Shown: one piece after another, positions 229 to 23,834 of the stretch | Numbering within the stretch: position 1 is the first letter of the stretch | Layout: every line of letters starts with the position of its first letter | Source: a virus | Length of the DNA stretch: 31,917 bases | Strand: one strand, 5' to 3' | Virus record (IMG/VR): IMGVR_UViG_3300030333_008567 | Span: 1 to 31,917 of that record | The notes under the pieces: model-generated | What the model saw: only the letters and a program-made list of their open reading frames with translations | Database searches by the model: none | What the model was told of the DNA's origin: nothing | Translations under genes and position numbers: made by a program

Positions 229-1833
229 ATGGCAAACATTGCTATCTACGGTTCGCACAATGGGGCTATAGCTCTAGAAGATAACGGTGAGTACTACGTA
301 CTTGAATTTGAAAGATTTTTTAATATTAAAAATATTGGTCTTGCTCAATATAAGCCATTACGCTATAGAGAAGAAGCAGTATACGCGGTATTAGAATATA
401 TTGAAAAGGAACTAGGTTATACACCACCGTTTGACAATCTTATTCATATTAACACTGAGTGTGTACATGATGATATAACATACAGTTATAAAGATTACAT
501 TCCCGCTAAAAATTTATATGAAGGTTGGCACCACCATGCACACGCTAGTGGTTCATTTTATCAGTCCGACTTTAATAAAGCGATTATTTTTAGCTTTGAT
601 GGTGGTGGTAATGATGGATTTTTTAACATCTTTACTGCTGACAGAAAAGAAGGGGTGTCGTACCTAGATAAAACTAACCCAGCTGATAGACATGATTATG
701 ATTATGACTTTGGGTTCCCTTATATGTGTTTTGCACATTTTTGCCCTGATATTAAACAGGAATGGATTTCAGACGGTAACTTAGTCTATAGTGGTAAAAT
801 TATGGGCTTATGTGGTTTTGGAAAAGTTCGACATGAATGGCTAAATGCATTTAAAGAGTTTTATTATTCAAAACCTGATGGGGAAAATTATATTCAAAAA
901 TTAAACGAAATTATTGGTAGAAAATGTAATTTAGTTTTTGATGAAAATAACAGATTAGATAAAGAAGTGAGTTGGGACGTGGCAGCAACTTCTCAGCAAG
1001 CTTTTGAAGATGTATTTTTTGAAGTAGCAATGCCGTATATCGAAAAATATAAAGACTATCCAATTATTATTACAGGGGGGTGTGGTCTTAATATTTTACT
1101 TGCTACCAAAATTAGGGAAATGTTTCCAGATAGGCCGAGCTTTGTAGCACCTAACACAAATGATTGTGGTATCGCTCTTGGTTTGCTTGCTGGGTTCAAT
1201 AAACCCGAAACACCTATTGATATTACATATGGTGGTACGGAGCTGATGGATAAAAATTGTTACCCTGCATGGATTGAAAGTAACAGTGCTAAACCCGTGG
1301 ACTTTAGTGCTATTACTCATTACTTGATGCAAGGTAAAATTTTCGGGGTTGCAAGAGGACGTTGCGAACACGGACCTAGAGCCTTAGGTAATAGGTCTAT
1401 TATTTGCAACCCCGCATTTCCTGAAATGAAAGATATTTTGAACCATAAAGTCAAACATCGTGAATGGTATAGACCGTTTGCTCCTGTATGTAGACTTGAA
1501 AATGCTTCAAAATATTTTGAATGGGAAGGTGAAACCAAACATATGTTGTACTGTCCAAGGGTTCGAGAAGAATGGCAAAAGGAACTAAGTTCTATTACAC
1601 ATGTAGATGGTACAGCAAGACTTCAAACCGTTACTAGAGAACAAAATCCTTGGTTGTATGACCTTCTTGGTGAGTTTGAAAAAGCTGCAGGTCACGGTGT
1701 TTTACTAAACACGTCTTTTAATATTGCCGGTAAACCGATATTGAATACTATTTCTGATGCAATGAAAGTACTTGAAACCTCAGAGATGGACTTTATAATT
1801 ATCGAAGATTTCTACTACGGAAAGTATTGGTAA
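229..1833 (+). CDS. NodU/CmcH/TobZ-family O-carbamoyltransferase
   Basis: The 534-residue protein has both halves of the family. The N-terminal Kae1-like half contains HHHAHA (101-106) and FDGGGND (123-129), the metal/nucleotide-binding elements, and TGGCGLN (282-288). The C-terminal YrdC-like half contains GPRALGNRS (382-390) and LLNTSFN (492-498). The family makes a carbamoyl-adenylate from carbamoyl phosphate and ATP and transfers the carbamoyl group to a hydroxyl, usually of a sugar or small metabolite. Full family length with all main motifs suggests an active enzyme. It starts 4 bases after uvsX and ends 1 base before the QueC-like gene, so it is probably co-transcribed with both. The substrate is unknown: a nucleotide sugar, a surface glycan or a hydroxymethylated DNA base are all possible. 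Confidence 0.9.
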   Translation: MANIAIYGSHNGAIALEDNGEYYVLEFERFFNIKNIGLAQYKPLRYREEAVYAVLEYIEKELGYTPPFDNLIHINTECVHDDITYSYKDYIPAKNLYEGWHHHAHASGSFYQSDFNKAIIFSFDGGGNDGFFNIFTADRKEGVSYLDKTNPADRHDYDYDFGFPYMCFAHFCPDIKQEWISDGNLVYSGKIMGLCGFGKVRHEWLNAFKEFYYSKPDGENYIQKLNEIIGRKCNLVFDENNRLDKEVSWDVAATSQQAFEDVFFEVAMPYIEKYKDYPIIITGGCGLNILLATKIREMFPDRPSFVAPNTNDCGIALGLLAGFNKPETPIDITYGGTELMDKNCYPAWIESNSAKPVDFSAITHYLMQGKIFGVARGRCEHGPRALGNRSIICNPAFPEMKDILNHKVKHREWYRPFAPVCRLENASKYFEWEGETKHMLYCPRVREEWQKELSSITHVDGTARLQTVTREQNPWLYDLLGEFEKAAGHGVLLNTSFNIAGKPILNTISDAMKVLETSEMDFIIIEDFYYGKYW

Positions 1834-1834
1834 T

Positions 1835-2635
1835 ATGAGTGATAATAGAAGAAAAGCAGTAGTCATTTTTAGTGGCGGCATGGATAGTGCTGCTATGTTA
1901 CGAATGACACAATTTAGTACAAACGATGTCTATGCTTTAACGTTTGATTACGGGCAACGACATAAACGGGAGATTGAATGTGCAAAGACACAAATCGAAC
2001 ATGCAACAATTTTAGGTTTTAACCATTCATTTGAAGACACGCAAATTTTTCATAAGGTGATTGATGTTAGTTTCTTGAAAGAACTTGCACCTACAAGTTC
2101 ATTAACTAATGACAATATAGATAACCCTGATGTAAAAGATATGGTTGGTGAAGCTCAACCGGTAAGTTATGTTCCTTTTAGGAACCAACTATTTTTGTCT
2201 ATTGCATGTTCGTATGCTGAAGCAGTAGGAGCAGGGCAAGTGGTTTATGGTGCAACAGAAGTTGATAGTTTAGCTGGTTACTGGGATGCAAGCCCTGAAT
2301 TTAAATCGCGTTATCAAGATCTAATTTCACTTAACCGTAAAAATGAAATTGCTTTGATGACACCGCTTCTTACATACGATAAAAAGGCTATTGTAGAATA
2401 TTGTGCTAATAATAATGTTTCATTAGCGAACACATATACTTGTTATAGTGGTGATGAGATTGCAGATGCAACAACCCCAAGTAGTAGCTTACGTATTAAA
2501 GGTTTTGCTGATGCAGGTTACATTGATCCTCAACCATATAAGCAAGATTTAACTTCATTTTGGGAAGAAAATAATTGTAAGCCATATCCAGATGACCCGT
2601 TTTTAGGAATGGGTGGTACTAGAGGATTAGGTTAA
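1835..2635 (+). CDS. queC: QueC-like PP-loop protein (7-cyano-7-deazaguanine synthase family) lacking most zinc cysteines
   Basis: The N-terminal PP-loop SGGMDS (13-18) and TFDYGQRHKREIECA identify the QueC family, which converts 7-carboxy-7-deazaguanine to preQ0 using ammonia and ATP. The segments VPFRNQLFLSIACSYAEAVGA and AGYWDASPEF correspond to conserved QueC regions, though the usual GYPDCRPEF has become GYWDASPEF. Canonical QueC ends with a four-cysteine zinc site (C-x8-C-x2-C-x2-C before LR). Here only the first is kept (TCYSG, Cys203); the next three positions, before LRIKGFADAG, are Ala/Asp, Thr and Ser. Length (266) is slightly above the usual 220-230. It follows the carbamoyltransferase by one base, and its stop overlaps the stop of the opposing gene. 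It may be a QueC with a metal-free fold or a divergent PP-loop enzyme with a different acceptor. Confidence 0.8.
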   Translation: MSDNRRKAVVIFSGGMDSAAMLRMTQFSTNDVYALTFDYGQRHKREIECAKTQIEHATILGFNHSFEDTQIFHKVIDVSFLKELAPTSSLTNDNIDNPDVKDMVGEAQPVSYVPFRNQLFLSIACSYAEAVGAGQVVYGATEVDSLAGYWDASPEFKSRYQDLISLNRKNEIALMTPLLTYDKKAIVEYCANNNVSLANTYTCYSGDEIADATTPSSSLRIKGFADAGYIDPQPYKQDLTSFWEENNCKPYPDDPFLGMGGTRGLG

Positions 2636-3198
2636 TAATCTTCGTGGTCGTCTTCAAATTCTGAAGCTTCTGCATCTTGACGATCATACATTTCAAGCCC
2701 TTCCATGTCACCCATTTTATCGGGATCGACCTCTGGTTGGGTTTCTTCGTCTCCAAATACTTCATCTAAAAGACCTTGCATAATCATATCTTCAACTACT
2801 TTTTTAGCAAGAGACTTATCTACATATTCAGATGCAAAGTTAATAATATCATTTGCATCTTCGGCACTGTTTTCTACATAATTAATAATGTCTTTTTGCA
2901 CACCCTTTAAAGGAACTTCATAAGCTTTATCACCTGGTTTAAACTTTCTTCCTTTTATTTTTACTTTACCTTGTTTGGCTTTCTTATATCTTGTTCCTCT
3001 ACTACGTGCACCGGCACCACCGCGGATACCTTTGATTCTCATCATCATTTCATAGTAACTTTCTTTACGTTCTTCTCCTGTATCAGGGTCAATTACTGTT
3101 TTTCTTTCTCTTTCCGCATATTGTTTCTTCCTACCTTCTTCTAAGGAATAAGCTTCTTGGTAAGATTCGAAAAGGTTTTGAGAATCTTTATCTTTCAT
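2632..3198 (-). CDS. Late gene, uncharacterised charged protein with LxE-Y N-terminal motif
   Basis: This 188-residue protein is not recognised as a named family. The N-terminus contains NLFESYQEAY (about residues 8-17), a motif shared with the minus-strand late proteins at 19411-22040. The middle is very basic (RSRGTRYKKAKQGKVKIKGRK) and the C-terminus very acidic (EFEDDHEDY). Residues about 100-145 look like a small helical domain. A T4-type late motif AATAAATA lies 6 bases before the ATG, so it is probably a late, virion-associated or assembly protein. The stop codon overlaps that of the convergent QueC-like gene. The basic centre could bind DNA; this is inference only. Confidence 0.7.
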   Translation of the reverse strand: MKDKDSQNLFESYQEAYSLEEGRKKQYAERERKTVIDPDTGEERKESYYEMMMRIKGIRGGAGARSRGTRYKKAKQGKVKIKGRKFKPGDKAYEVPLKGVQKDIINYVENSAEDANDIINFASEYVDKSLAKKVVEDMIMQGLLDEVFGDEETQPEVDPDKMGDMEGLEMYDRQDAEASEFEDDHEDY

Positions 3199-3234: not shown

Positions 3235-3879
3235 ATGTGTGCAATATTTGGAACTACAAGTAGAGAAAAATTTATTAGTCTTTATGATCTGAATAAAGAC
3301 CGTGGTGGTTATGCTGCTACGTTTAGTGGTATAAAGGATGGTAAGATTAATACATTTAAAAGTAAGTTATTTGATATTGAAAATCTTTATCTAGAAAATT
3401 GGGACTATTATCTGGGTCATCATCAAGCTCCTACTAGTTCAGTAAGGAAGTATACAGAAAAGACGTCACACCCGTTTAATTATGGTAGGTGGCATGTAGC
3501 TCATAACGGTGTTATTAGTAACTATAAACAAGTTACAGAAGCTAGTGATACTAAAGAAATAGATACATCGTATATACCTGCATATATGGAAGAGTTAGAC
3601 CTAAGTCCTTTGGGTTTGAATGATAAAGAACTACTAGAAGAGACTTTTAGTGCATTCAAAGGAACGCATACTTGTTGGGTGTGGGATGATAAAAATGGTA
3701 ATTTACATTTAACTAAAAACGGTAGTACTTTATTTGTAGAAGGTGAATCGTTTTCATCTGTTCAATTTGATACAAGTAAACCTGCATTAGATGGTTATGT
3801 ATACAAATATTATCCTAAATCTGGGTTTTTAGAGTATGTAAAGTTTGGTGGTAATAACCCTTTTGCTGTATTCAGTTGA
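3235..3879 (+). CDS. Stand-alone class II glutamine amidotransferase (Ntn glutaminase)
   Basis: The protein begins Met-Cys (MCAIFG), the hallmark of Ntn-type glutaminases in which Cys2 becomes the catalytic N-terminal nucleophile. HPFNYGRWHVAHNGVISN carries the oxyanion-hole Asn-Gly (Asn91-Gly92), as in GlmS, PurF and AsnB. GHHQAPTS (61-68) aligns with the GHTRWATHG element, but the Arg that normally holds the glutamine carboxylate is replaced by Gln64. At 214 residues it is a glutaminase domain without a fused synthase, so it may supply ammonia to a partner protein. Neighbouring candidates that use ammonia or act on sugars are the QueC-like protein and the sugar enzymes; that link is inference. 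It has its own promoter ending 8 bases before the ATG. Confidence 0.85.
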   Translation: MCAIFGTTSREKFISLYDLNKDRGGYAATFSGIKDGKINTFKSKLFDIENLYLENWDYYLGHHQAPTSSVRKYTEKTSHPFNYGRWHVAHNGVISNYKQVTEASDTKEIDTSYIPAYMEELDLSPLGLNDKELLEETFSAFKGTHTCWVWDDKNGNLHLTKNGSTLFVEGESFSSVQFDTSKPALDGYVYKYYPKSGFLEYVKFGGNNPFAVFS

Positions 3880-3903
3880 TATCTAACAAGAGGTTATTAT
3901 TAT
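3876..3903 (+). promoter_or_regulatory. Sigma70-like promoter for the epimerase gene
   Basis: TTGATA (3876-3881), 16-bp spacer, TATTAT (3898-3903), 6 bases to the ATG at 3910. The expected transcription start coincides with the start codon. Confidence 0.6.
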
Positions 3904-3909
3904 AGTTAC

Positions 3910-4974
3910 ATGAAGACAGCATTAGTTTGTGGCGCCGGTGGTTTTATTGGTAGCCACTTAGTTAAAAGGCTTAAAAAGGATGGTTATTGGGTAAGAGGTG
4001 TTGATCTTAAGTACCCAGAGTTTAGTGAAACGGAAGCAGATGAATTTATTACCGGTGATTTAACTAGACAAGATTTCGTTGATAGGATTACAAAGACAGG
4101 TAGTTATTTTGGTTCTGTTCCTATCCAATATCAAGAACAATTTGACGAAATTTACCAGCTAGCTGCTGATATGGGTGGTGCTGGTTACATCTTTACAGGT
4201 GATCATGATGCAAATGTTATGAGAAACTCAGCTACTATTAATCTTAACATTCTCAATTCAGTTAACACCTTAAATCAGTTTGTTAAATTGCCATGGTATA
4301 ACGATTCAAGAGTACACCCTTATAAAGAAAAGGTAACTAAGATCTTTTATAGTAGTTCTGCATGTATGTACCCTGAACATAACCAGTTAGACCCAGATAA
4401 CCCGAATTGTGAAGAATCCTCTGCATACCCTGCTAACCCAGACAGTGAATACGGTTGGGAGAAGTTATTCTCCGAAAGGTTATATCTTGCATATCAACGA
4501 AATTATGGTATTCCTTGTAGAATAGCAAGATTTCACAATATTTACGGTCCAGAAGGTACATGGACTGGTGGTAGAGAAAAAGCACCAGCAGCAATTTGTA
4601 GAAAGGTAGCTGAAACCCAAGATGGTGGTAGTATTGACGTGTGGGGTGACGGTAATCAAACACGATCATTTTTATATGTTGATGAATGTGTAGAAGGAAT
4701 TAGACGTTTAATGGATTCAGACTTTTCTGATCCAGTAAATCTTGGATCTGACGAAATGGTTACTATTAATCAGTTAATTGAAACAGCAGAATCGGTTGCA
4801 GGTAAAAAATTAGTTCGTAACTATATTGACGGGCCGACAGGTGTAAGGGGTAGAAACAGTGATAACAAATTAATTAGTAAAGCACTTAATTGGACACCTA
4901 ACTATCCTTTACTTGATGGTATTATTAATACATATGCTTGGATTAGCAAGCAAGTTGAAGATGCAAAGTCTTAA
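3910..4974 (+). CDS. GDP-mannose 3,5-epimerase-like SDR enzyme
   Basis: This 354-residue extended short-chain dehydrogenase/reductase has the NAD-binding GAGGFIG (8-14), the YxxxK pair (Tyr181, Lys185), and the two catalytic positions of plant GDP-mannose 3,5-epimerase: Cys in SSSACMYPE (Cys152) and Lys in GGREKAPAA (Lys224). Long identical stretches to the plant enzyme family as remembered (RFHNIYGP-GTW-GGREKAPAA, WGDG-QTRSF, PVNLGSDEMV, GVRGRNSDN) make the assignment strong. The reaction converts GDP-D-mannose to GDP-L-galactose or GDP-L-gulose. It is separated from gp41 by its own and the next promoter. It probably feeds glycosylation of a phage or host polymer; no glycosyltransferase is seen in this window. 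Confidence 0.88.
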   Translation: MKTALVCGAGGFIGSHLVKRLKKDGYWVRGVDLKYPEFSETEADEFITGDLTRQDFVDRITKTGSYFGSVPIQYQEQFDEIYQLAADMGGAGYIFTGDHDANVMRNSATINLNILNSVNTLNQFVKLPWYNDSRVHPYKEKVTKIFYSSSACMYPEHNQLDPDNPNCEESSAYPANPDSEYGWEKLFSERLYLAYQRNYGIPCRIARFHNIYGPEGTWTGGREKAPAAICRKVAETQDGGSIDVWGDGNQTRSFLYVDECVEGIRRLMDSDFSDPVNLGSDEMVTINQLIETAESVAGKKLVRNYIDGPTGVRGRNSDNKLISKALNWTPNYPLLDGIINTYAWISKQVEDAKS

Positions 4975-12267: not shown

Positions 12268-13197
12268 ATGAAAGTTCTAGTGACAGGTGGTTATGGATTT
12301 ATCGGTAGCCACCTAGTCAACTCTTTAGCTGAAAAAGGCTATAAAGTTTTAATATACGATAAATGTACCTACGCCACAGAATATGTTGTTAAAGAAAATA
12401 TAAACAACACGTGGCGCAGACATGGTGACATTTGCGATGTAAGGAATATTAAAAATCTTTTTAGAATACACGATATAGAAAGAATTTACCACCTAGCTGC
12501 TGAAACTCACGTAGATAACAGTATAGACGACCCTAACGTTTTTATGAATACAAACGTTTTAGGTACTCAAAATCTTTTAAACGTTGCAAGAGATCAAAAT
12601 ATTCCTTTTATTCATGTATCAACTGATGAAGTATACGGTGCACTACGAAAGGATGATAAAAATTGGAATGAAAACCAACCAGTAATGCCAAGATCACCTT
12701 ATGCGGCGTCAAAAGCAGCATCAGACCTTGTTGCTTTATCATACTATACAACTTATGGTTTAGATGTCCGTGTTACGAGGTGTTGTAATAACTTTGGAAT
12801 ACACCAACATGGTGAAAAACTTATACCAAAGTCAATAATGTCTGCAATAAAAGACAAAGAAATAAAAATTTATGGTGACGGTACTAACATGCGTGAGTGG
12901 ATACACGCTAAAGACCATGCAGATGGTATTATATTAGTATCTGAAAAAGGTAAACCTGGTGAAATTTATAATATCGGAACAGGTGAAGAAAAAAGTAATA
13001 ACGATATAGCAAAAATGATTGTTAAATATACTAAATCTAACGCTAAGATTCGTTATATTAAAGATAGACCTGGTCATGACTATCGATATGCTCTTAACTT
13101 TGGAAAAATTAAGAGATTAGGTTTTAAACCAACAAGAACTATTAACGACAAAAAGGAATGGGATGAGCTTATTCAATTTTACACAGAACGCCTATAA
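12268..13197 (+). CDS. NDP-glucose 4,6-dehydratase (RmlB-like)
   Basis: The protein (309 residues) shows GGYGFIG (7-13), STDEVYG with the Thr-Asp-Glu catalytic triad part (Thr119, Asp120, Glu121), YAASK (Tyr145, Lys149) and the C-terminal RPGHDYRYA, all typical of RmlB. It converts dTDP- or UDP-glucose to the 4-keto-6-deoxy sugar, the first step to L-rhamnose and related deoxysugars. It starts one base after the epimerase/reductase stop, so the two form a compact operon. It is shorter than bacterial RmlB (about 350), as expected for a phage version. Nucleotide preference cannot be told from sequence alone. Confidence 0.9.
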   Translation: MKVLVTGGYGFIGSHLVNSLAEKGYKVLIYDKCTYATEYVVKENINNTWRRHGDICDVRNIKNLFRIHDIERIYHLAAETHVDNSIDDPNVFMNTNVLGTQNLLNVARDQNIPFIHVSTDEVYGALRKDDKNWNENQPVMPRSPYAASKAASDLVALSYYTTYGLDVRVTRCCNNFGIHQHGEKLIPKSIMSAIKDKEIKIYGDGTNMREWIHAKDHADGIILVSEKGKPGEIYNIGTGEEKSNNDIAKMIVKYTKSNAKIRYIKDRPGHDYRYALNFGKIKRLGFKPTRTINDKKEWDELIQFYTERL

Positions 13198-14588: not shown

Positions 14589-14789
14589 ATGAGTAGTTAT
14601 CACAATAACATGAATTTAGTGAGAGCGATCCCAATCGCTAGTCCGATTTCAGGAGAAACAGTGCACCCACGTATGCATAGAATAGAGCGCGGCGGTAAAA
14701 TTTACACAGAAGCTCATTGGATTGACCCTGCAAGTGGTACATTTATCCGTAAGGGTATTGTTTCTATTGAAGATGCACCGAAAAATTAG
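14589..14789 (+). CDS. Small late protein of unknown function
   Basis: A 66-residue protein between RNase H and primase. The start is fixed by a late motif exactly 5 bases upstream. The C-terminal half (IERGGKIYTEAHWIDPASGTF) looks like a compact beta domain. No family is recognised. The late promoter inside a replication cluster suggests a virion or assembly role rather than replication. Confidence 0.65.
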   Translation: MSSYHNNMNLVRAIPIASPISGETVHPRMHRIERGGKIYTEAHWIDPASGTFIRKGIVSIEDAPKN

Positions 14790-14822: not shown

Positions 14823-15857
14823 ATGGTATTACCTGAAGCATATATCGTACAAAAATTTTATCAGTACGCAGGTAAGCCTAAGTACAACCGTCTTACGAAA
14901 ACGTATCAAGGCGGTTGTCCTATCTGTAGAGAAGGTAAATCATGGGGTAAAAAACGAAGACTGTTCTATGTAATTAAAGATAACTTTTTTCATTGTCATA
15001 ATTGTGGGTGGCATTCTAACCCTACAAATTGGATCATAGAAGTATCGAGTCTTACTTTTGAAGAGGTGTTAGAAGAAAGTAAAGACTACGATATATTACC
15101 AAAAGATGTAAATGAAAAAGAAATAAATGAATACGTTAAACGTATATTCAGTCAAAAGCTACCAGACGATAGTATAAACCTTTTCGACGACACGCAGCTT
15201 AAGTTTTATAACAGTAACCCAATAGTACAAACAGCTGTAAAGTACATAAAGGATAGAATGTTGGATACAGCATGCAATAAACCCAAGTCACTTTATGTAT
15301 CATTAAAAGATAAAACTCATAAAAATAGATTAGTCATACCTTTTTGGAATTTAAACAATAAAATAATTCATTATCAAACAAGAACGCTTCTTAAAAATGA
15401 TGAAAAATTTAAACCTAAGTACCTATCCAAAATTAATAGCGATAAAAGTGTCTTTAATATAGATAAAGTGACTGAAGAATTGGATAAAATTTATATATTC
15501 GAAGGACCCATCGATGCATGCTTTGCTGTAAACGGGGTTGCAGTTGCAGGAATAACTGAGAACAGTTCTAGCCTTTATACTAAACTTCAATATGATCAAT
15601 TGAACAAGTTTCCGTTTCATGAAAGGGTAATTGTACTAGATTCTCAATGGCAAGATCAAGCTTCTAAAAATAAAACAAAAATACTACTTGATGCGGGGGT
15701 TAAAGTCTTTATATGGCCTAAAAAACTTGGAAAGCGATATAAAGACTTTAATGAGCTAGTTATTGATAATAAAATAAATAAAGTCCCATCAAAAATTATA
15801 GATGAAAATACCTATACAGGTTTAATGGGAAGGGTAGTGTTATCAAGAATCAACTGA
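14823..15857 (+). CDS. 61: gp61-like DNA primase
   Basis: At 344 residues it matches T4 gp61 (342). The N-terminal zinc ribbon is intact: CPIC (Cys32, Cys35) and CHNC (Cys58, Cys61). The TOPRIM core has YIFEGPIDACF with the conserved Glu227 and a downstream VIVLDSQ strand for the second acidic motif. It synthesises RNA primers with the gp41 helicase. Its last 15 bases overlap the convergent late gene. The promoter ends 6 bases before the ATG. Confidence 0.92.
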   Translation: MVLPEAYIVQKFYQYAGKPKYNRLTKTYQGGCPICREGKSWGKKRRLFYVIKDNFFHCHNCGWHSNPTNWIIEVSSLTFEEVLEESKDYDILPKDVNEKEINEYVKRIFSQKLPDDSINLFDDTQLKFYNSNPIVQTAVKYIKDRMLDTACNKPKSLYVSLKDKTHKNRLVIPFWNLNNKIIHYQTRTLLKNDEKFKPKYLSKINSDKSVFNIDKVTEELDKIYIFEGPIDACFAVNGVAVAGITENSSSLYTKLQYDQLNKFPFHERVIVLDSQWQDQASKNKTKILLDAGVKVFIWPKKLGKRYKDFNELVIDNKINKVPSKIIDENTYTGLMGRVVLSRIN

Positions 15858-16244
15858 GTGCAAATAACCTTTAAGATTTTCAATTAAAGAACTTAACTCC
15901 ATTGCAACTCTTGCAATTTTCTTAGTTTCAGCTCCTGCAATTTTATTAAAAAGGGTATCGCAACTTGCATCATGCAGTTTAGATTGTACTGAATAGGGTT
16001 GCTCACTATTAAGATAGTTAGTAAATTCTTCCATCTTTGCGATAATAATAGCTAATTCTTTAGCTTGCTTTACATTATCATTTGCTACTACTTGTTCTGC
16101 GTCCATTACAGGAGCATCGACTGCACCTAATTCTTCAGCGTCAGTACCGGGTTCTAACTGTGTTTCCATTGCCTCGGTATCTGTAATAGTAATTTCTTCG
16201 TCTTGTTCTAAAAGTTTAACAAAATGTTTACCAAAAAAGCTCAT
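15843..16244 (-). CDS. Late uncharacterised acidic protein
   Basis: The start chosen is ATG at 16244 (133 residues, MSFFGKHFVKLLEQ), because a late motif CATAAATA lies exactly 5 bases before it; a TTG further upstream would run through that motif. The N-terminal residues are amphipathic with an LLE/LxE pattern, followed by an acidic stretch and a helical C-terminal domain. No family is recognised. It converges on the primase gene and diverges from the late gene at 16277. A capsid or core protein is possible. Confidence 0.65.
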   Translation of the reverse strand: MSFFGKHFVKLLEQDEEITITDTEAMETQLEPGTDAEELGAVDAPVMDAEQVVANDNVKQAKELAIIIAKMEEFTNYLNSEQPYSVQSKLHDASCDTLFNKIAGAETKKIARVAMELSSLIENLKGYLHSVDS

Positions 16245-16276: not shown

Positions 16277-16756
16277 ATGTCCAGTAGGAAACTTTTAGAA
16301 GAAGATCAAATTAAAATGTACAACAAGTGGGTTCGTGGTATTGCTACCAGAGAACAAAAGCCCTCGCATGTCACGGTAGGAGATCTACTTCAAGCTTCAG
16401 GTAGAAACGAAAATAATAGAGCTCCACTGGAATTACCTTACCCAATGACACATATTGTTGAGGATTTGGGTGGTCTTTATCTTGCTGCAGATAATGTACA
16501 AGCTAAAGCTATGCAAACTAAAAATAACCCCGTTGTTTTCGAAAGCGAAAACGCTGCTGAAAGTTTAGATGCATTTATTGGTAAAATGAAGAAAATAAAA
16601 GCTATTATTGAAAGTCTTACAAATGATTTAGATGTAATAGTACAACGTAAACCTTATCAAAGTGATAGTTCTGAACCAGACGACAATTCGAATGATGCTC
16701 CTCGCATGCCCGACGGTGCAATGGGCCCCAAACCAATTAATAAGTTAGCTAAGTAA
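16277..16756 (+). CDS. Late uncharacterised 159-residue protein
   Basis: The start is fixed by the late motif 5 bases upstream. The N-terminus (MSSRKLLEEDQIKMYNKW) is helical with an LLEE pattern; residues about 85-125 form a long helix (AESLDAFIGKMKKIKAIIESLTNDLD), and the last 30 residues are Pro/Asp/Asn-rich and disordered. No family is recognised. It is divergent from another late gene, so the pair may act together in virion assembly. Confidence 0.65.
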   Translation: MSSRKLLEEDQIKMYNKWVRGIATREQKPSHVTVGDLLQASGRNENNRAPLELPYPMTHIVEDLGGLYLAADNVQAKAMQTKNNPVVFESENAAESLDAFIGKMKKIKAIIESLTNDLDVIVQRKPYQSDSSEPDDNSNDAPRMPDGAMGPKPINKLAK

Positions 16757-17838: not shown

Positions 17839-18136
17839 TACTACATTAACTGTACCGGTAACTATTGGGGCTTCTAGAATTGGAGGCCCCACCATTCCGG
17901 GTCAAACTAAGCAAGTAAACAAAATTTCTACAAGAAGTTTGCGTCCAGGGGTGTTTTATACTTTAATGCACATTCGTAAAGATGAAGAAGGGGTAAAATA
18001 TATCTTTAAAGGTAATGATGGTACTGTTACCGAAGAGACTTTTGCGAATTGTAATGAAGCAGATAAGTTTATTGCTAATATCAAAGGTGAAACACTTCCA
18101 GATTACGAAAAGTTTTACAACGATTTAAGCTCCTGA
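17801..18136 (+). CDS. Uncharacterised protein of about 104-111 residues
   Basis: The frame overlaps the preceding gene by 38 bases if started at 17801; an ATG at 17822 (MHYILNTTLTVPVTIG) is at least as likely, because conserved-looking beta sequence begins there. The fold looks beta-rich first (LTVPVTIGASRI, YIFKGNDGTVTEETF) and then helical. The 3' end overlaps the convergent minus-strand gene by 12 bases. No family is recognised. Confidence 0.55.
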   Translation: MSTFFKNMHYILNTTLTVPVTIGASRIGGPTIPGQTKQVNKISTRSLRPGVFYTLMHIRKDEEGVKYIFKGNDGTVTEETFANCNEADKFIANIKGETLPDYEKFYNDLSS

Positions 18137-18970
18137 TGGTCCAAATGGCCCGTCTTCTGGTTCTTCAGTGTTACCATAACCACCATAAACGTCATCATAA
18201 CCAAAATTAGAGTAATCAAATATTTCTTTTGATTCTTCTTCAAGGTTTCCGTTGTAACTCTTATTAGGTGACCTACTATTAGTACCTTCACCCATACGAC
18301 CTGAAAATTTATCATCGTATACTTGATCGCTTCCGCCTTCAGTACTAAGACCTGGCTCAAAACTGTAATCGTAACGTTTCGCTTTCACCATCCATACGTA
18401 ATGACCAGCTAAAGGATTAATTCTTGATACATCTTCATCTAATCTTTCAGTGACCTCAAATTGTTTACCCGTTCTTGGCCATGGCCTATCACTTCCATAT
18501 TCAGATAATATAAATACATCACCTGCTTTAGGTTCTTGTGGGTAACCAAATGCAGAATAAAAACCACTTATGTGTATATATGCAGTTAATTCATCATCAG
18601 AATCAAATCCATACTTTTGTAATACTACTGCATTTTCATTTAACTCAACTGCAATAATAATTTCTTTAGGATCTTTAAATGTCTTAGTAGGTTCTTCTCC
18701 ATAAATGTTATCTGCTGATAAAGTCTGATATGGATTTTGATACCAAGTAACTTTTTGACCATATAAAGCAATAATTTCTTCCCACCAATTGTCGATTACT
18801 ATTCTTTCACAACCGTTTTCAGATTTGTCTGTAAATCTAAAACATTTATTATATGGTTTTGGACCAGGATAAATTGAACCAGGTGAATCAGGATCAGGAG
18901 TTGGTACACCTGGTAAAAATTTCGGCATGATTTGATTCATGCCCCTGTATCTGTCCATGTTAATAGCCAT
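18125..18970 (-). CDS. Virion structural protein, tentative gp14-like neck protein
   Basis: The 281-residue protein has a central region, with YGEEPTKTFKDP, a following IIIAVELNE strand and PKAGDVFILSEYG, FEVTERLDED, HYVWMVKAKRYDYSFEPGL, that follows the order seen in T4-type neck protein gp14 (GEDP-KFxD, REGD, FEIxxVE, YKLxxELFxYSxExxxTG). gp14 (256 residues in T4) forms the neck that seals the filled head and joins the tail. The C-terminal 60 residues are acidic, Gly/Asn-rich and disordered. It overlaps the upstream gene by 11 bases; an alternative ATG at 18958 (MDRYRGMN) follows that stop by one base. The assignment is from remembered family patterns. Confidence 0.55.
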   Translation of the reverse strand: MAINMDRYRGMNQIMPKFLPGVPTPDPDSPGSIYPGPKPYNKCFRFTDKSENGCERIVIDNWWEEIIALYGQKVTWYQNPYQTLSADNIYGEEPTKTFKDPKEIIIAVELNENAVVLQKYGFDSDDELTAYIHISGFYSAFGYPQEPKAGDVFILSEYGSDRPWPRTGKQFEVTERLDEDVSRINPLAGHYVWMVKAKRYDYSFEPGLSTEGGSDQVYDDKFSGRMGEGTNSRSPNKSYNGNLEEESKEIFDYSNFGYDDVYGGYGNTEEPEDGPFGPSGA

Positions 18971-19346
18971 TAGAGTCTAAATGAGAGTTTTGATTAGTTT
19001 CTCTTGTCTTTTGCAGGTAATAATTTCCATTATATAGTATTGATATACCTGTCTTCTTTAAACCTTTTGGTTTACCTGGTTTTAAATTACGGACACCAAA
19101 TCTTGCCATAAGTACGCTGGCATCTTTTGGTGATATTTTTACGATTTTAGCCCCGTTATTACGTTTCAGTACTTTATATGCATCTGGTAAAGAATGGTCC
19201 TGTTTTAGATAGTCAGGAATTGTTTGAGCGTTACCAGGCTTACGTTCGCCAATATCTCTTACAACAGAGTGTTGATGTCTATGATTAACTCCAGGAATGG
19301 AACTAGAAAAGGGCTTATATTTTTCGAAAAACATTCTGAAGTTCAC
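18960..19346 (-). CDS. Late uncharacterised basic protein with GTG start
   Basis: The start chosen is GTG at 19346 (128 residues), since a late-like CTTAAATA lies exactly 5 bases before it; starts further upstream would lie in the terminator of the preceding gene. ATG at 19334 is the alternative. The protein is basic with Pro/Gly-rich loops (RNLKPGKPKGLKKTG) and no recognised motif. It is co-transcribed with the neck-like protein gene downstream, so a head-tail joining or virion role is likely. Confidence 0.6.
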   Translation of the reverse strand: MNFRMFFEKYKPFSSSIPGVNHRHQHSVVRDIGERKPGNAQTIPDYLKQDHSLPDAYKVLKRNNGAKIVKISPKDASVLMARFGVRNLKPGKPKGLKKTGISILYNGNYYLQKTRETNQNSHLDSNGY

Positions 19347-19410: not shown

Positions 19411-20148
19411 TTACGCTCTCTTATTTTTCTGGAAGAACTCTTGATCTCCCTTGCCGCCACCTTTGATAACGCTTTTAATAACGTTGGCTGTACCTTTAGG
19501 TGGTGTTGGCTTACCGTCTTTCTGATTGACTAAAGGATGTCCTTCGTCTTCCTCAGAATAACCATCATAATCGATTAAAGCTTCGCCACCATTTGAATCA
19601 ACTTTGCTAGTGTATTCAGATGAAACAACGTTGCTTGAACCAGTCACTGGTGTTGGGTTACCTTCCTTCTGGTTTACTAAGGGGTGACCTAAGACTTCAG
19701 CTTCGATTTCTTCACGAAAATAGTTGAAAGAATCTTCTTCATCTTCGTCCATCTCGTCTTCTGGATGGCTCTTTGTTCCGTAATCTCTTACTTCACTCTT
19801 ACGGCCTGTCTTTTTATCGAAACGACGTTCTCTGTCTCCTTTATTACCGCCGAATTTCTTCTCTTTTTCAGACTCATCTTCTTCGTATTCGTCTTCATCG
19901 TCAGGATCGCCAAGAGCATCTTCGACATCTTCAATGTCGTCAGCAGCATCCATAACGTCCATCAATGCGTCATGTAAATGCTTTGCAACATCCCTAGGAA
20001 TGGAAATTGTAATAGATTCTGAATCTTCAATATCAACGTCTTCACCACCGCCGTCGACGTCGACACCGAGTTCAACTGCGTCCATTGTTTCGTCGTCCAT
20101 TACTTCTTCGTAAAGACGATCAAAAATAGATTTATTTGTTTTAGCCAT
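19411..20148 (-). CDS. Internal start product of the 379-residue gene (245 residues)
   Basis: TATAAATA, a perfect T4 late consensus, lies exactly 5 bases before an in-frame ATG at 20148. The product would start MAKTNKSIFDRLYEEV, with the same LxE-like motif as other late proteins of this block. The same spacing is seen at other late genes, so an independent shorter protein is likely, with or without the full-length form. Confidence 0.6.
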   Translation of the reverse strand: MAKTNKSIFDRLYEEVMDDETMDAVELGVDVDGGGEDVDIEDSESITISIPRDVAKHLHDALMDVMDAADDIEDVEDALGDPDDEDEYEEDESEKEKKFGGNKGDRERRFDKKTGRKSEVRDYGTKSHPEDEMDEDEEDSFNYFREEIEAEVLGHPLVNQKEGNPTPVTGSSNVVSSEYTSKVDSNGGEALIDYDGYSEEDEGHPLVNQKDGKPTPPKGTANVIKSVIKGGGKGDQEFFQKNKRA

Positions 20149-20550
20149 ATTAGTATTTATACTCTCTCTGTTTATTTTTTCGTTTTCAGCTTTAAAATAG
20201 TCGCTAGCGCCTTCTCCACCAGGAACGCTTGGATCGGATAACTGTTTAACGTCATATTCGTTATCTAATTTAATTTTAGGGTTATCTGGATCAAGTTGCG
20301 TTGCAGACCAGTTGCCAGCTCCTTCAGGTCCAGAATTTTTTTGTACAAATCCTTTATAACCGTCCGGTTTTTCTGCAGGTACGTCGGTATTTTTTCCCTT
20401 AGTGGGTACCTTCTTACCAGCACGTTCATATGTTTTGTTGATAGCCTTTGGGGCTTTGATAGCCTGCTTGGCAGCTTTAGTGCCAGGCGGGGTACCTACA
20501 ACCGCTTCATATGCTTCCTCTATTTGAATAAGATCTCTTTTTCTATTCAT
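19411..20550 (-). CDS. Large acidic late protein with internal start; candidate capsid core/internal protein
   Basis: The full frame encodes 379 residues beginning MNRKRDLIQIEEAYEAV, which resembles the first residues of the neighbouring 361-residue protein. Residues 1-134 are basic and Pro/Gly-rich; residues 135-379 are extremely acidic with disordered Asp/Glu runs and a Lys/Arg-rich segment (about 230-255). Two copies of a HPLVNQK-(E/D)G-(N/K)-PTP motif lie near the C-terminus. A late promoter sits inside the frame (20154-20161) with an in-frame ATG. No family is recognised; the composition suggests a scaffold/core or internal head protein. It ends in a strong terminator. Confidence 0.7.
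   Translation of the reverse strand: MNRKRDLIQIEEAYEAVVGTPPGTKAAKQAIKAPKAINKTYERAGKKVPTKGKNTDVPAEKPDGYKGFVQKNSGPEGAGNWSATQLDPDNPKIKLDNEYDVKQLSDPSVPGGEGASDYFKAENEKINRESINTNMAKTNKSIFDRLYEEVMDDETMDAVELGVDVDGGGEDVDIEDSESITISIPRDVAKHLHDALMDVMDAADDIEDVEDALGDPDDEDEYEEDESEKEKKFGGNKGDRERRFDKKTGRKSEVRDYGTKSHPEDEMDEDEEDSFNYFREEIEAEVLGHPLVNQKEGNPTPVTGSSNVVSSEYTSKVDSNGGEALIDYDGYSEEDEGHPLVNQKDGKPTPPKGTANVIKSVIKGGGKGDQEFFQKNKRA
20154..20161 (-). promoter_or_regulatory. Perfect T4 late promoter inside a coding frame
   Basis: Minus strand TATAAATA, 5 bases before ATG at 20148, within the 379-residue frame. Confidence 0.7.
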
Positions 20551-20554
20551 AAAA

Positions 20555-20974
20555 TTATCCTATTGGAAATATGTCACTATGAAAGACAGGTAATATACCT
20601 TCGTCTGTTTCAACAACATAAATTCCGTTATCTACCGTTTTACTTGGTAAAAATTCTTTAACAATGCCTGAACCACCGCCGCGCTCTTCTGCAATATCTA
20701 CTTCAGCACCTATACCGATAGCAGCAGGCCTGTCTTCAAAATCTTCGTCGCGTTCTTCTTGATTTTCTTGATCAGTATGTTTTTTATAAGCTTTTAAAGC
20801 TTCATGACCAGCGATTGCACTAGCAGCACCGCCTAATACAGCACCGCCAATACCTTCATTAATAACTTCTTCGGTATGCATCGCCCTAATGTCATTATCT
20901 GACATAGAAGCATATGCTTCAAAAAGTTCAGACATTGATCTGTCGCCAGATGATTTATAAAATTTGTCTACCAT
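20555..20974 (-). CDS. Late uncharacterised protein with glycine-rich hydrophobic segment
   Basis: A 139-residue protein overlapping the previous gene by 20 bases. The N-terminus, SSGDRSMSELFEAYASM (about 8-24), is a near copy of the C-terminal segment of the adjacent 361-residue protein. Residues about 42-60 (GIGGAVLGGAASAIAGHEA) are Gly/Ala-rich and hydrophobic; an acidic stretch follows, and the C-terminal 35 residues look like a small beta domain. The alternative ATG (MSELFEAY) lies 13 codons downstream. No family is recognised; a virion-associated role is inferred from the block. Confidence 0.65.
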   Translation of the reverse strand: MVDKFYKSSGDRSMSELFEAYASMSDNDIRAMHTEEVINEGIGGAVLGGAASAIAGHEALKAYKKHTDQENQEERDEDFEDRPAAIGIGAEVDIAEERGGGSGIVKEFLPSKTVDNGIYVVETDEGILPVFHSDIFPIG

Positions 20975-22040
20975 TCTGAATAACCTTTTCGTAATTTTCC
21001 ATTAACTGGGTCATTGCTCTGTCGCCCTTTGAACTATAAGATTCTTTACTACAAGGTACGTGATCGCAACGTTCTTCTTTTCCGTCACCGTCATCATATT
21101 TGCCTTTTTTCTTATTTTCTTCATCTTCATCCAAGTCGGGGTACTTTTTAGCAACACATTTATCAATACCTGCAGGATTAGGGGCATTATGAGCATAAGA
21201 TTTTGCTGCTATAGCTCTCTTTCTGGTATTAACTGGGTATGTACCAGGTGCAGCTCCTCCTGCTGGTCCGCAAAAATCATCTTTATCTACGTTTGTATAT
21301 TTACCGGCGTTAGAACTACCTCTTCGGTCCTTTTCATCATCTAGATCTTTACCCCAACGCTTTTTATATTTCTTTTCACGTTCACCTTCGTCTTCATCTT
21401 CCATCGGAAATCCAAGATCTTCAGATTCTAATTCATCTTCTGAAGAAGTGTGACCTGTTTTAGGGTTAAAATATTTTATACCTGAAACTCTTGGGTCTTC
21501 ATCATCATCTACATCATTCTTGAAATAACTTAAATCGGTTGGAAATGCATTATCGTCTTCTTCATCTTCTTGACCGGTTGGGTTCCACTGACCTTCACCA
21601 CTATTGGGTCCTGTGTTAGGAAAGGTGTGTGTACCGTAAGGTGAATCTTCTTCAGCCTCCCCAGCTTGGTCTCCTGTGCTGGATTGACCTTTAAAAAATT
21701 GTGAAGCTGGCAAACCGTTAATTTGACCATCGGTATCAATCTTAATTGTACCCTTATCGCCAGTCATAATTACATTACCTTTTTCGTCTGCGTGCTTTCT
21801 CGCATAACCATGTTTAGAAGCTTGTCTTGCAGATCTTTCTTGCGGGCTTTCTTCTTCACCCTCATCATTTTCTAAAGGGTTTTGATCTTCAGCTCTTTGA
21901 GTAATTTGTCCTGTGCTGTCATCGTAATCTCCGGTACCACCAGCACCTGGTTGGGTGTTAACGGATCCACGGCCACCGGCGTAACCCATCGCTTCTGCGT
22001 AAACTTCACTTAAAAGTTCTAAATCTTTTTTGCGATTCAT
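20955..22040 (-). CDS. Large acidic late protein, candidate internal/core head protein
   Basis: The 361-residue protein starts MNRKKDLELLSEVYAEAM, close to the N-terminus of the 379-residue neighbour, and is mostly acidic, Gly/Asn-rich low-complexity sequence. A short Cys-containing region (about 260-330, with CGPAGG, DKCVAKKYP and CDHVPC) may form a small ordered or metal-binding unit. The C-terminus has SSKGDRAMTQLMENYEKV (336-353), repeated in the next protein. A late motif lies 5 bases before the ATG. No family is recognised; disorder and acidity would fit a prohead core component. Confidence 0.7.
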   Translation of the reverse strand: MNRKKDLELLSEVYAEAMGYAGGRGSVNTQPGAGGTGDYDDSTGQITQRAEDQNPLENDEGEEESPQERSARQASKHGYARKHADEKGNVIMTGDKGTIKIDTDGQINGLPASQFFKGQSSTGDQAGEAEEDSPYGTHTFPNTGPNSGEGQWNPTGQEDEEDDNAFPTDLSYFKNDVDDDEDPRVSGIKYFNPKTGHTSSEDELESEDLGFPMEDEDEGEREKKYKKRWGKDLDDEKDRRGSSNAGKYTNVDKDDFCGPAGGAAPGTYPVNTRKRAIAAKSYAHNAPNPAGIDKCVAKKYPDLDEDEENKKKGKYDDGDGKEERCDHVPCSKESYSSKGDRAMTQLMENYEKVIQNGRQIL

Positions 22041-22097: not shown

Positions 22098-23834
22098 ATG
22101 AAAAATACCCGCGATTATTATTTGGGTAATCCTAACCTGCCTACTGACAGTACCAAGTTTGAGTGGACACCTCAAATGGTTAAACAGTTAAAGAAGGCAA
22201 AGCAAAATCTTCTTTATTTTGCAGAAAACTTCTTTTATATTGTCAACCTAGACAGAGGGCGAGAAATGATTACTCTACACTCTTGTCAAAAGAGAGCATT
22301 AAGGGGTATGAGAGATAATCGCTTCTTTATATTACTTGCCTCTAGACAGATTGGTAAAACTACCATGATGACAATTTATACGTTATGGCATGCATGTTTT
22401 AATAGTGATCAACGTATATTAATTGTAGCTAACAAAGAAGGTACAGCAAAAGAAATATTTTCTCGTGTTAGAATGGCTTATGAAGAACTTCCTAACTGGC
22501 TTAAACCTGGTGTTAGTGAGTATGGTAAAGAGTCGATGAAGTTAACTAACGGTACTTCAATTGGTATTAGTACTACAACAGGAACCGCAGCACGTGGTCA
22601 ATCTATTAATGTGTTGGTGCTGGATGAGTTGGCATTTATTGAACCTCATTTAGTAGATCAATTTTGGAAATCTGTTTTTCCTGTAATTTCATCTTCGAAA
22701 AAGTCTAAAATTTTTATAGCTTCAACTGCAAACGGAACCGATAACCTATTTTATAAAATTTGGAATGGTGCTATTGAAGAAACCAACGGTTGGGGTCATG
22801 ATAAAATTTTATGGGACGAAGTACCTGGTAGAGACGACAAATGGAAAATGGAAACCATGCGTACTATCGGTAGTGAAGAAGCTTTTAATCAAGAATTTAA
22901 CTGTGAATTTATATCTGCAGGTGAAATGGCAATTAATGAAGAGATATTCGAAACTCTTAAAGTTAATTGTATTAAACCTAAGATGACTATGGAAGAGGGT
23001 AAGTATAAAATATGGAGAGAACCCGACGATCAAGGTTTATATGCAGTTGGTGTTGACGTATCTGAAGGTATTGGACAAAATGCAAGTGTAATTCAAATAT
23101 TCGATTTAAAAGACCTTACTAATATAGAGCAAGTTGCTTGTTATCATGATACAAATATAAATCCTATTCATTTTACCCAAAAACTATACGAAATTTTATT
23201 GCAGTGGGGTTCACCTCCTGCATTAGTAGAACGTAACAACTGTGGAGCACAGGTTGTTGAACAGCTCTATTATAATATGAGATACCCTAACGTGGTTACT
23301 TTCAATGCTGGTACAGGAAAAGTAAAAGCAAACCGGGTTGGTGTATTAGCTCATACAAATACCAAGTATAGAATGGTAACTAACATGAGGTATTTCGTTA
23401 ATGAATTACGTTCTGTTAACATTAGAGACATTGAAACCCTTACGGAAATCAAGAATTTTATCAAATACCCTAACGGAAAATGGGCTGCTAAGCCAGGTAT
23501 TGGAATGCTTGATGACCGTGTAATGTCTCTAGGTTGGGCTCTTATTATATTAGACAATGAAGTTGTAGAAAAATATTTTGAAGTTGTTTCTAAAGACGAT
23601 AATGGAAGACCCGCACAACTTAACAGATATGATTATGATTTTCACACTCCTGTTGCAAAAGGTCTTTTTGATGAAGAGCAAGACAGAGATGTAGACGGTA
23701 TTGTTTTCAATGAACAGTTTAATGAAGAAAATAACGTTGAACTTGGTCAAATGCTACAAAACGGTTGGGTAAGAGCTGGTGATTTTCAATCTTCAAGATC
23801 ATTTTCACCTGTAAGCGATTTAGGTTTGTATTAA
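22098..23834 (+). CDS. 17: gp17-like large terminase (packaging ATPase/nuclease)
   Basis: The motor domain has Walker A SRQIGKTT (Lys87 when counted from the ATG at 22098), Walker B VLVLDE (Asp176, Glu177) and the coupling region IASTANG. The RNase H-fold nuclease begins with VGVDVSEG (Asp320), and LDDRVMSLGWAL near the C-terminus matches the last catalytic Asp region. The length of about 578 residues is slightly below T4 gp17 (610). It cuts concatemeric DNA and packages it into the prohead. A TTG six codons upstream (22080) is an alternative start. The divergent late gene at 22040 shares the 57-bp intergenic stretch. Confidence 0.94.
   Translation: MKNTRDYYLGNPNLPTDSTKFEWTPQMVKQLKKAKQNLLYFAENFFYIVNLDRGREMITLHSCQKRALRGMRDNRFFILLASRQIGKTTMMTIYTLWHACFNSDQRILIVANKEGTAKEIFSRVRMAYEELPNWLKPGVSEYGKESMKLTNGTSIGISTTTGTAARGQSINVLVLDELAFIEPHLVDQFWKSVFPVISSSKKSKIFIASTANGTDNLFYKIWNGAIEETNGWGHDKILWDEVPGRDDKWKMETMRTIGSEEAFNQEFNCEFISAGEMAINEEIFETLKVNCIKPKMTMEEGKYKIWREPDDQGLYAVGVDVSEGIGQNASVIQIFDLKDLTNIEQVACYHDTNINPIHFTQKLYEILLQWGSPPALVERNNCGAQVVEQLYYNMRYPNVVTFNAGTGKVKANRVGVLAHTNTKYRMVTNMRYFVNELRSVNIRDIETLTEIKNFIKYPNGKWAAKPGIGMLDDRVMSLGWALIILDNEVVEKYFEVVSKDDNGRPAQLNRYDYDFHTPVAKGLFDEEQDRDVDGIVFNEQFNEENNVELGQMLQNGWVRAGDFQSSRSFSPVSDLGLY

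Follow-up and report, generated by a model that had tools for sequence, protein, structure and literature searches.

A set of short peptides at the ends of late minus-strand proteins in an uncultured T4-superfamily phage is best read as prohead targeting and processing signals, a reading to which we give a probability of about 0.58. In this model, proteins A, B and C, and probably D, F and G, would be late head-associated proteins whose N-terminal amphipathic signals (in A also a C-terminal one) bring them into the prohead scaffold core, where a gp21-type protease would cut after (L/I)-x-E and leave the mature proteins inside the head, as for the T4 internal proteins and Alt; C would be made in two in-frame forms, full length and a shorter C*, the latter from a late promoter inside the coding sequence. 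We put forward more tentatively the wider proposal that a widespread uncultured T4-superfamily lineage loads modular, mostly acidic head proteins through N- and C-terminal end signals shuffled among neighbouring genes, one of which would always give two nested in-frame proteins with their own start signals, a late promoter retained within the coding sequence serving the inner protein. Among the T4 internal proteins is an antirestriction factor that is delivered together with the DNA. If this proposal holds, LxE avoidance in mature bodies would be a proteomics-free marker of head-internal proteins, and the rule that end sites are kept and internal sites avoided would let the head cargo of T4-like marine phages be listed from metagenomes without culture.

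The window, by which we mean the whole 31,917-nt stretch analysed, is part of a 33.2-kb viral record of a T4-superfamily phage, an uncultured virus of bacteria. Its plus strand encodes replication genes (DnaB-type helicase, single-strand binding protein, sliding clamp, exonuclease and primase) together with terminase, tail sheath, tail tube and baseplate hub genes. The genes at issue lie on the minus strand, between a neck or head-closure protein (18125-18970, minus strand; PHROG 679 head closure Hc2, E 2.7e-9) and the terminase large subunit (22098-23834, plus strand; PHROG 5989/2, E 9e-53), with a further one, F, at 2632-3198. No close match to the window was found among isolated phages, nor, by tblastn at E 0.01, any homologue of C/C* in them, a search whose low-complexity filter may hide weak ones. 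Pfam at curated cut-offs returned nothing for A, B, C, D or F, PHROGs gave no convincing match for A-D and F, and recognisable relatives of A-C were absent from the HTVC008M late genes compared, the capsid protein of that phage carrying an LxE-type site, FLGE↓I (arrows mark the cut position, predicted for the proteins studied here). IMG/VR yielded 32 loci related to protein C and 31 related to the terminase; the relative IMGVR_UViG_3300030106_007723 (G008) has a terminase 81% identical to that of the window. In the literature searched, which covered few subscription journals, we found no report of these families or of an internal late promoter of the kind described below.

The sequence-only reading had quoted five peptides sharing an L/I-x-E pattern, and all five are present in the window: MNRKKDLELLSEVYAEAM starts A, SMSELFEAYASM spans residues 13-24 of B, MNRKRDLIQIEEAYEAV starts C, NLFESYQEAY is residues 8-17 of F, and MAKTNKSIFDRLYEEV, which is not the start of an open frame but runs from residue 135 onward of the C frame, is still a likely gene start. 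Protein A (20955-22040, minus strand; 361 aa) opens with the putative signal MNRKKDLELLSE↓VYAEAM and has LxE at residues 10-12, 303-305 and 346-348 only, the last within a C-terminal copy of the motif, MTQLMENYEKV (residues 343-353). This copy belongs to a C-terminal module, SSKGDRAMTQLME↓NYEKVI (20958-21038, minus strand), which is homologous to the start of B and whose site, among A homologues, falls 8-16 residues ahead of the C-terminus; A also contains a conserved DKDxFCGPxGGAxxGTYPVNT...HNAPxPxGI segment that matches no named family. Protein B (20555-20974, minus strand; 139 aa) carries the signal YKSSGDRSMSELFE↓AYASM, a Gly/Ala-rich middle and a C-terminal SH3/Tudor/KOW-like barrel (alignment A2), and its AlphaFold2 model shows a helix at residues 14-22, C-terminal strands and a low-confidence middle (mean pLDDT 56 overall, near 78 in the barrel), a fold search of the PDB giving weak barrel matches only. 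The earlier description of these proteins as disordered thus fits the middle of B, the one protein modelled for this, but not its barrel. Full-length protein C (19411-20550, minus strand; 379 aa) begins with MNRKRDLIQIEE↓AYEAVV, a site kept in 8/8 close homologues, and has LxE only as IEE at residues 10-12, at the start of C, and LYE at 146-148, at the start of C*. The proteins had also been called acidic, which suits A (78 D+E and 48 K+R), B (29 and 12) and C (89 and 52) and, to a lesser degree, F (45 and 33). In other phages C is joined, within a single protein, to the A segment or to a hydrophobic segment with a Lys-rich run after it, which suggests that A, B and C act together. As a separate observation, the N-terminal extension of the C homologues at L131, L134, L139 and L142 has a hydrophobic stretch and then a Lys/Arg run (e.g. 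IPAAGAAGYYLGRKKRKKK), an arrangement that recalls a membrane anchor or an ejection-protein segment.

The shared end motif is concentrated where the proposed signals lie. Within the first 30 residues, [LIMF]xExY occurs in 5/7 minus-strand versus 1/35 plus-strand window genes (Fisher p = 1.4e-4), and in 11 of the 81 genes of the window and G008 combined against 1.6 ± 1.2 in shuffles (largest 6), figures that are indicative, the pattern having been written post hoc with the peptides already seen. Plain (L/I)xE near the start is found in 31/81 genes against 19 expected; as a sole test it was rejected as too weak, the sheath family having it in 97% of homologues. Among homologues, [LI]xE lies in the first 30 residues of A in 18/18 (4.3 expected), of B in 9/9, of C in 8/8 and of F in 12/12, with exceptions among more distant C homologues, and the strict site is lost in some members (LSD in B of L003 and L007; LGQ in C of L130 and VYE in C of L141 and L146). 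A longer common module, approximately (Y/F)xS(K/H/S)(G/A)D(R/K)xM(T/S)x(L/I)xExY, ends A and begins B, and at locus L090 this A/B-type module begins C in place of the usual MNRKRDLIQIEEAY; judged by these alignments, the end elements of A, B and C are partly homologous (paralogous). Overlooked by the sequence-only reading were the C-terminal copy in A, the module shared by the end of A and the beginning of B, and N-termini of a related kind in the D and G families.

Judged by their N-termini, the closest look-alikes of the T4 tags are in fact late families absent from the earlier list, with starts such as MTFKEFYVMIGES and MNSFKEFIKEQ. Protein D (18960-19346, minus strand) has a GTG start with TTAAATA 5 nt upstream and begins MNFRMFFEKYKPFSS, while its relatives (alignment A3) begin MTFKEFYVMIGE↓S in G008, MNSFKEFIKE↓Q in L114 and MTFKEFFIMIEE↓R in L003, resembling T4 IPI MKTFKEF...ITE↓A and IPIII MKTYQEFIAE↓A. 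The C-terminal domain of D is conserved, and a fold search of D gave no usable match; L019:2598-3683 and its homologues L050, L062, L127, L130 and L145 carry the D domain behind an N-terminal nucleotidyltransferase-like domain (PF01909, E 3e-4). Protein F (2632-3198, minus strand; 188 aa), preceded by an ATAAATA-type element before its ATG, carries the putative signal MKDKDSQNLFE↓SYQEAYSLEE↓GRKK, its family starting MKDKDxQxL(F/Y/L)E↓SYxxx(L/I/V)xE↓GRKK with L(F/Y/L)ESY in 15/15 relatives listed. Protein G (15843-16244, minus strand; 133 aa) has the N-terminus MSFFGKHFVKLLE↓QDEE, and relatives have MKNYQSRFFNIME↓AD and MSYFKSRFDYILE↓AD. G forms a divergent late pair with the plus-strand gene at 16277-16756, whose homologues, like those of G, are enriched in internal LxE, unlike A/C; the two are candidates for gp67/gp68-like core proteins. 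Cyanophages, to our knowledge, are said to lack gp67/gp68.

A protease that could act on such sites is present in the lineage. In G008, a gp21-family protease (PF03420, E 7e-38) is encoded along with a Gp23 capsid protein and a protein occupying the gp22 position; the gp21-family (S77) protease and gp23 are not on the window contig, the 33-kb record stopping short of that region. Among 72 distinct gp23 homologues, 60 carry LLENQExWC(L/I)xE↓x and three have VxE, and the residue after the site is A in 39, S in 9, N in 6, G in 5 and D in 4 (n=63). The LLENQE block aligns with the same region of T4 gp23 (IFENQE...FLTE65↓A), and T4 gp21 cuts after L/I-x-E (PMC9026906), so that the apparent specificity of the lineage protease at the capsid protein would be (L/I)xE↓(A,S,N,G,D).

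Were A and C exposed to this protease in the prohead, one would expect them to retain a site where cutting is needed and to lose it elsewhere. Across a non-redundant set of 37 A/C-family proteins that counts C* starts, [LI]xE before A, S, G or N is confined to the first 25 residues or, in A, to the region 8-16 residues ahead of the C-terminus; the two exceptions, both internal, are at L029 residue 82 and L109 residue 233. Beyond residue 30, [LI]xE was seen 54 times against 115 expected from 30-residue local shuffles (z -6.3), the reversed motif was in excess (162 versus 113) and [LI]xD was normal; z values are inflated by the relatedness of the homologues, and it is the direction and the controls that carry the argument. 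A stricter non-redundant set with both ends removed gave 31 versus 65, making [LI]xE the second most depleted of 504 spaced residue patterns. A compositional cause, acid runs without Leu or Ile, was ruled out by the local shuffles and the reversed motif. Other late families showed no comparable depletion, and the sheath was enriched. F had 0 strict internal sites against 4.8 expected, an avoidance weaker than that of A/C, whereas B showed none (6 versus 4.8 expected) and G was enriched in internal sites; a mature body apparently cleared of further sites is thus a property of A/C and not of B or G, for which a core-type role is possible. T4 IPII and IPIII each carry just one LxE, located within the signal, and IPI has one, at the signal end, while gp22 of T4 and of G008 is enriched in LxE (14 versus 5.1 each), so the A/C site pattern is like that of the T4 internal proteins and the opposite of that of the T4 scaffold gp22.

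The description of these proteins as late is backed by promoter elements. The published late promoter of T4-like cyanophages is NATAAATA (PMC2984593). The window holds 8 instances of ATAAATA-N5-ATG, where 0.4 would be expected, and every one is at a gene start, including those of the sheath, the tube, A (5 nt before the ATG) and C*, and by this pattern the window late genes appear to have T4-type late promoters, (N)ATAAATA upstream. Late-promoter elements 5-6 nt before a start codon were noted at window positions 14589, 16244 (minus strand), 16277, 22040 (minus strand), 24488, 27107 and 30077. Several early genes have TTGA...TATAAT 5-7 nt before the ATG (e.g. 9725, 13471, 16793 and 28957), and many transcripts of this phage may be leaderless.

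One such element, TATAAATA (20154-20161, minus strand), lies within the C frame, 5 nt before the start codon of the nested in-frame gene C* (19411-20148, minus strand; 245 aa, beginning MAKTNKSIFDRLYEEVMDDE). The element precedes the C* ATG in 53/53 distinct homologous loci (39 ATAAATA, 13 CTAAATA and 1 TTAAATA), in each case inside a longer open frame that varies widely upstream of it. The codons that spell the promoter are kept although, in these frames, ATA accounts for 22% of the Ile codons and CTA for 7% of those for Leu; the Asn codon in the element is AAT in 53/53 against 59% in the frames overall. Because the internal promoter module is conserved and its codons constrained, the short form C* is very probably expressed as well, and the C locus probably makes two nested in-frame proteins. 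C/C* would thus be a clean case of a promoter element kept inside coding sequence across very different upstream domains. In-frame nested head genes include lambda C/Nu3 and herpesvirus UL26/UL26.5. In T4 gene 21, too, an annotated internal start (NC_000866) gives a shorter protein that is the C-terminal part of the longer one in the same frame; C/C* differs from all three in having a T4-type late-promoter element within the coding sequence in 53/53 loci and in having no protease domain. The peptide at the C* start did not bear out what had been claimed for it: the conserved core of MAKTNKSIFDRLYEEV is FD(R/K)LY rather than L-x-E, and LYE is replaced by LYN in 10/38 distinct sequences, so that the peptide behaves as a conserved helix and not as a universal cleavage site.

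The likeness to T4 is close in organisation and looser in residues. Like the capsid targeting sequence of IPI, IPII and IPIII (PMC9026906), the proposed signals are short N-terminal segments of late proteins that end in (L/I)xE before a small residue, with one site per protein, a body free of sites and a gp21-family protease in the lineage, and D and G relatives also have the M(K)x(F/Y)xxF layout. The main role of residues 4 and 7 of IPIII is targeting, and that of residues 8 and 10 is processing (PMC9026906); the T4 layout (aromatic at 4, F at 7, then I-x-E) is absent from A, B, C and F and is matched or nearly matched by some D and G relatives (MNSFKEFIKE, MTFKEFYVMIGE and MKNYQSRFFNIME). 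The aromatic targeting residues of IPIII precede the site, whereas in A, B, C and F the Tyr comes after it; the T4 internal proteins are net basic and the window proteins mostly net acidic, and a C-terminal copy of the signal is a feature of protein A. Nearer parallels in other head proteins are T4 gp24 (MAKINELLRE↓S) and gp21 (MNEPQLLIE↓T), which resemble F (NLFE↓S), B (ELFE↓A) and the gp21 of G008 (MSYKLLVE↓T), and T4 Alt and gp21, whose known C-terminal processing (PMC9026906) recalls the C-terminal site of A, although gp24, gp21 and Alt have no sequence relationship to A, B, C or F. Phage P1 DarB likewise has an N-terminal segment of >9 and <30 residues that directs the protein into the head (PMC9024508), but the Dar proteins have neither a common motif nor an LxE rule. 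Since A, B, C and F depart from the T4 residue layout and their cleavage is predicted, we describe a system that appears to work like T4 capsid targeting rather than a formal member of it.

The C* result bears directly on another account, in which the motif is an amphipathic docking helix that binds the scaffold, the portal or another head protein, its Glu being kept as part of a helix face and not as a protease site. Retention of FD(R/K)LY without LxE in C*, the short helix that AlphaFold2 gives on the B signal and the D or Q at the cut position in some B and C homologues all speak for such a helix; yet it leaves unexplained both the orientation-specific [LI]xE avoidance in the rest of A/C and the way A homologues keep L-x-E through a register shift (LSE/VY to LYE/S), and we regard it as rather unlikely. 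The same avoidance weighs on the idea that the proteins are scaffold-core components like T4 gp22, gp67 and gp68, degraded to small peptides instead of being packaged mature. Acidic, mostly extended proteins would suit this, as in gp22 and gp67, as would the gp22-like enrichment of internal LxE in G and the 16277-16756 homologues and the precedent, annotated for T4 gene 21, of phage scaffold and protease genes with nested in-frame products, but internal sites far below expectation in A and C, and none of the strict kind in F, make it improbable.

The common peptide could instead be just the outcome of one N-terminal segment having been copied among A, B and C, with no role in targeting or cleavage. 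This would account for the paralogy of their elements and for the B-type module that begins C at L090; however, similar N-terminal sites occur in F, G and D, for which no relationship to A-C is detectable, and the avoidance of sites in one direction requires a functional cause, so we consider this very unlikely. The capsid-targeting and gp21-cleavage interpretation, first offered by the sequence-only reading, is supported in part, by the gp21-family protease and (L/I)xE capsid site of the lineage and by A/C sites kept at the ends and avoided inside, whereas the C* peptide, the loss of the strict site in some A-C homologues and an acidic character unlike that of T4 do not fit it.

Two further regions drew attention. 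By eye, the products of window positions 229-2635, 3235-4974 and 12268-13197 resemble a carbamoyltransferase, a QueC-like enzyme, a glutamine amidotransferase and sugar-nucleotide epimerase/dehydratases, which together could be a 7-deazaguanine DNA modification and sugar module. In G008, about 5 kb of repetitive low-complexity sequence (L076:655-5724) gives Cys/Ser-rich minus-strand frames and is possibly a repetitive tail protein read on the opposite strand.
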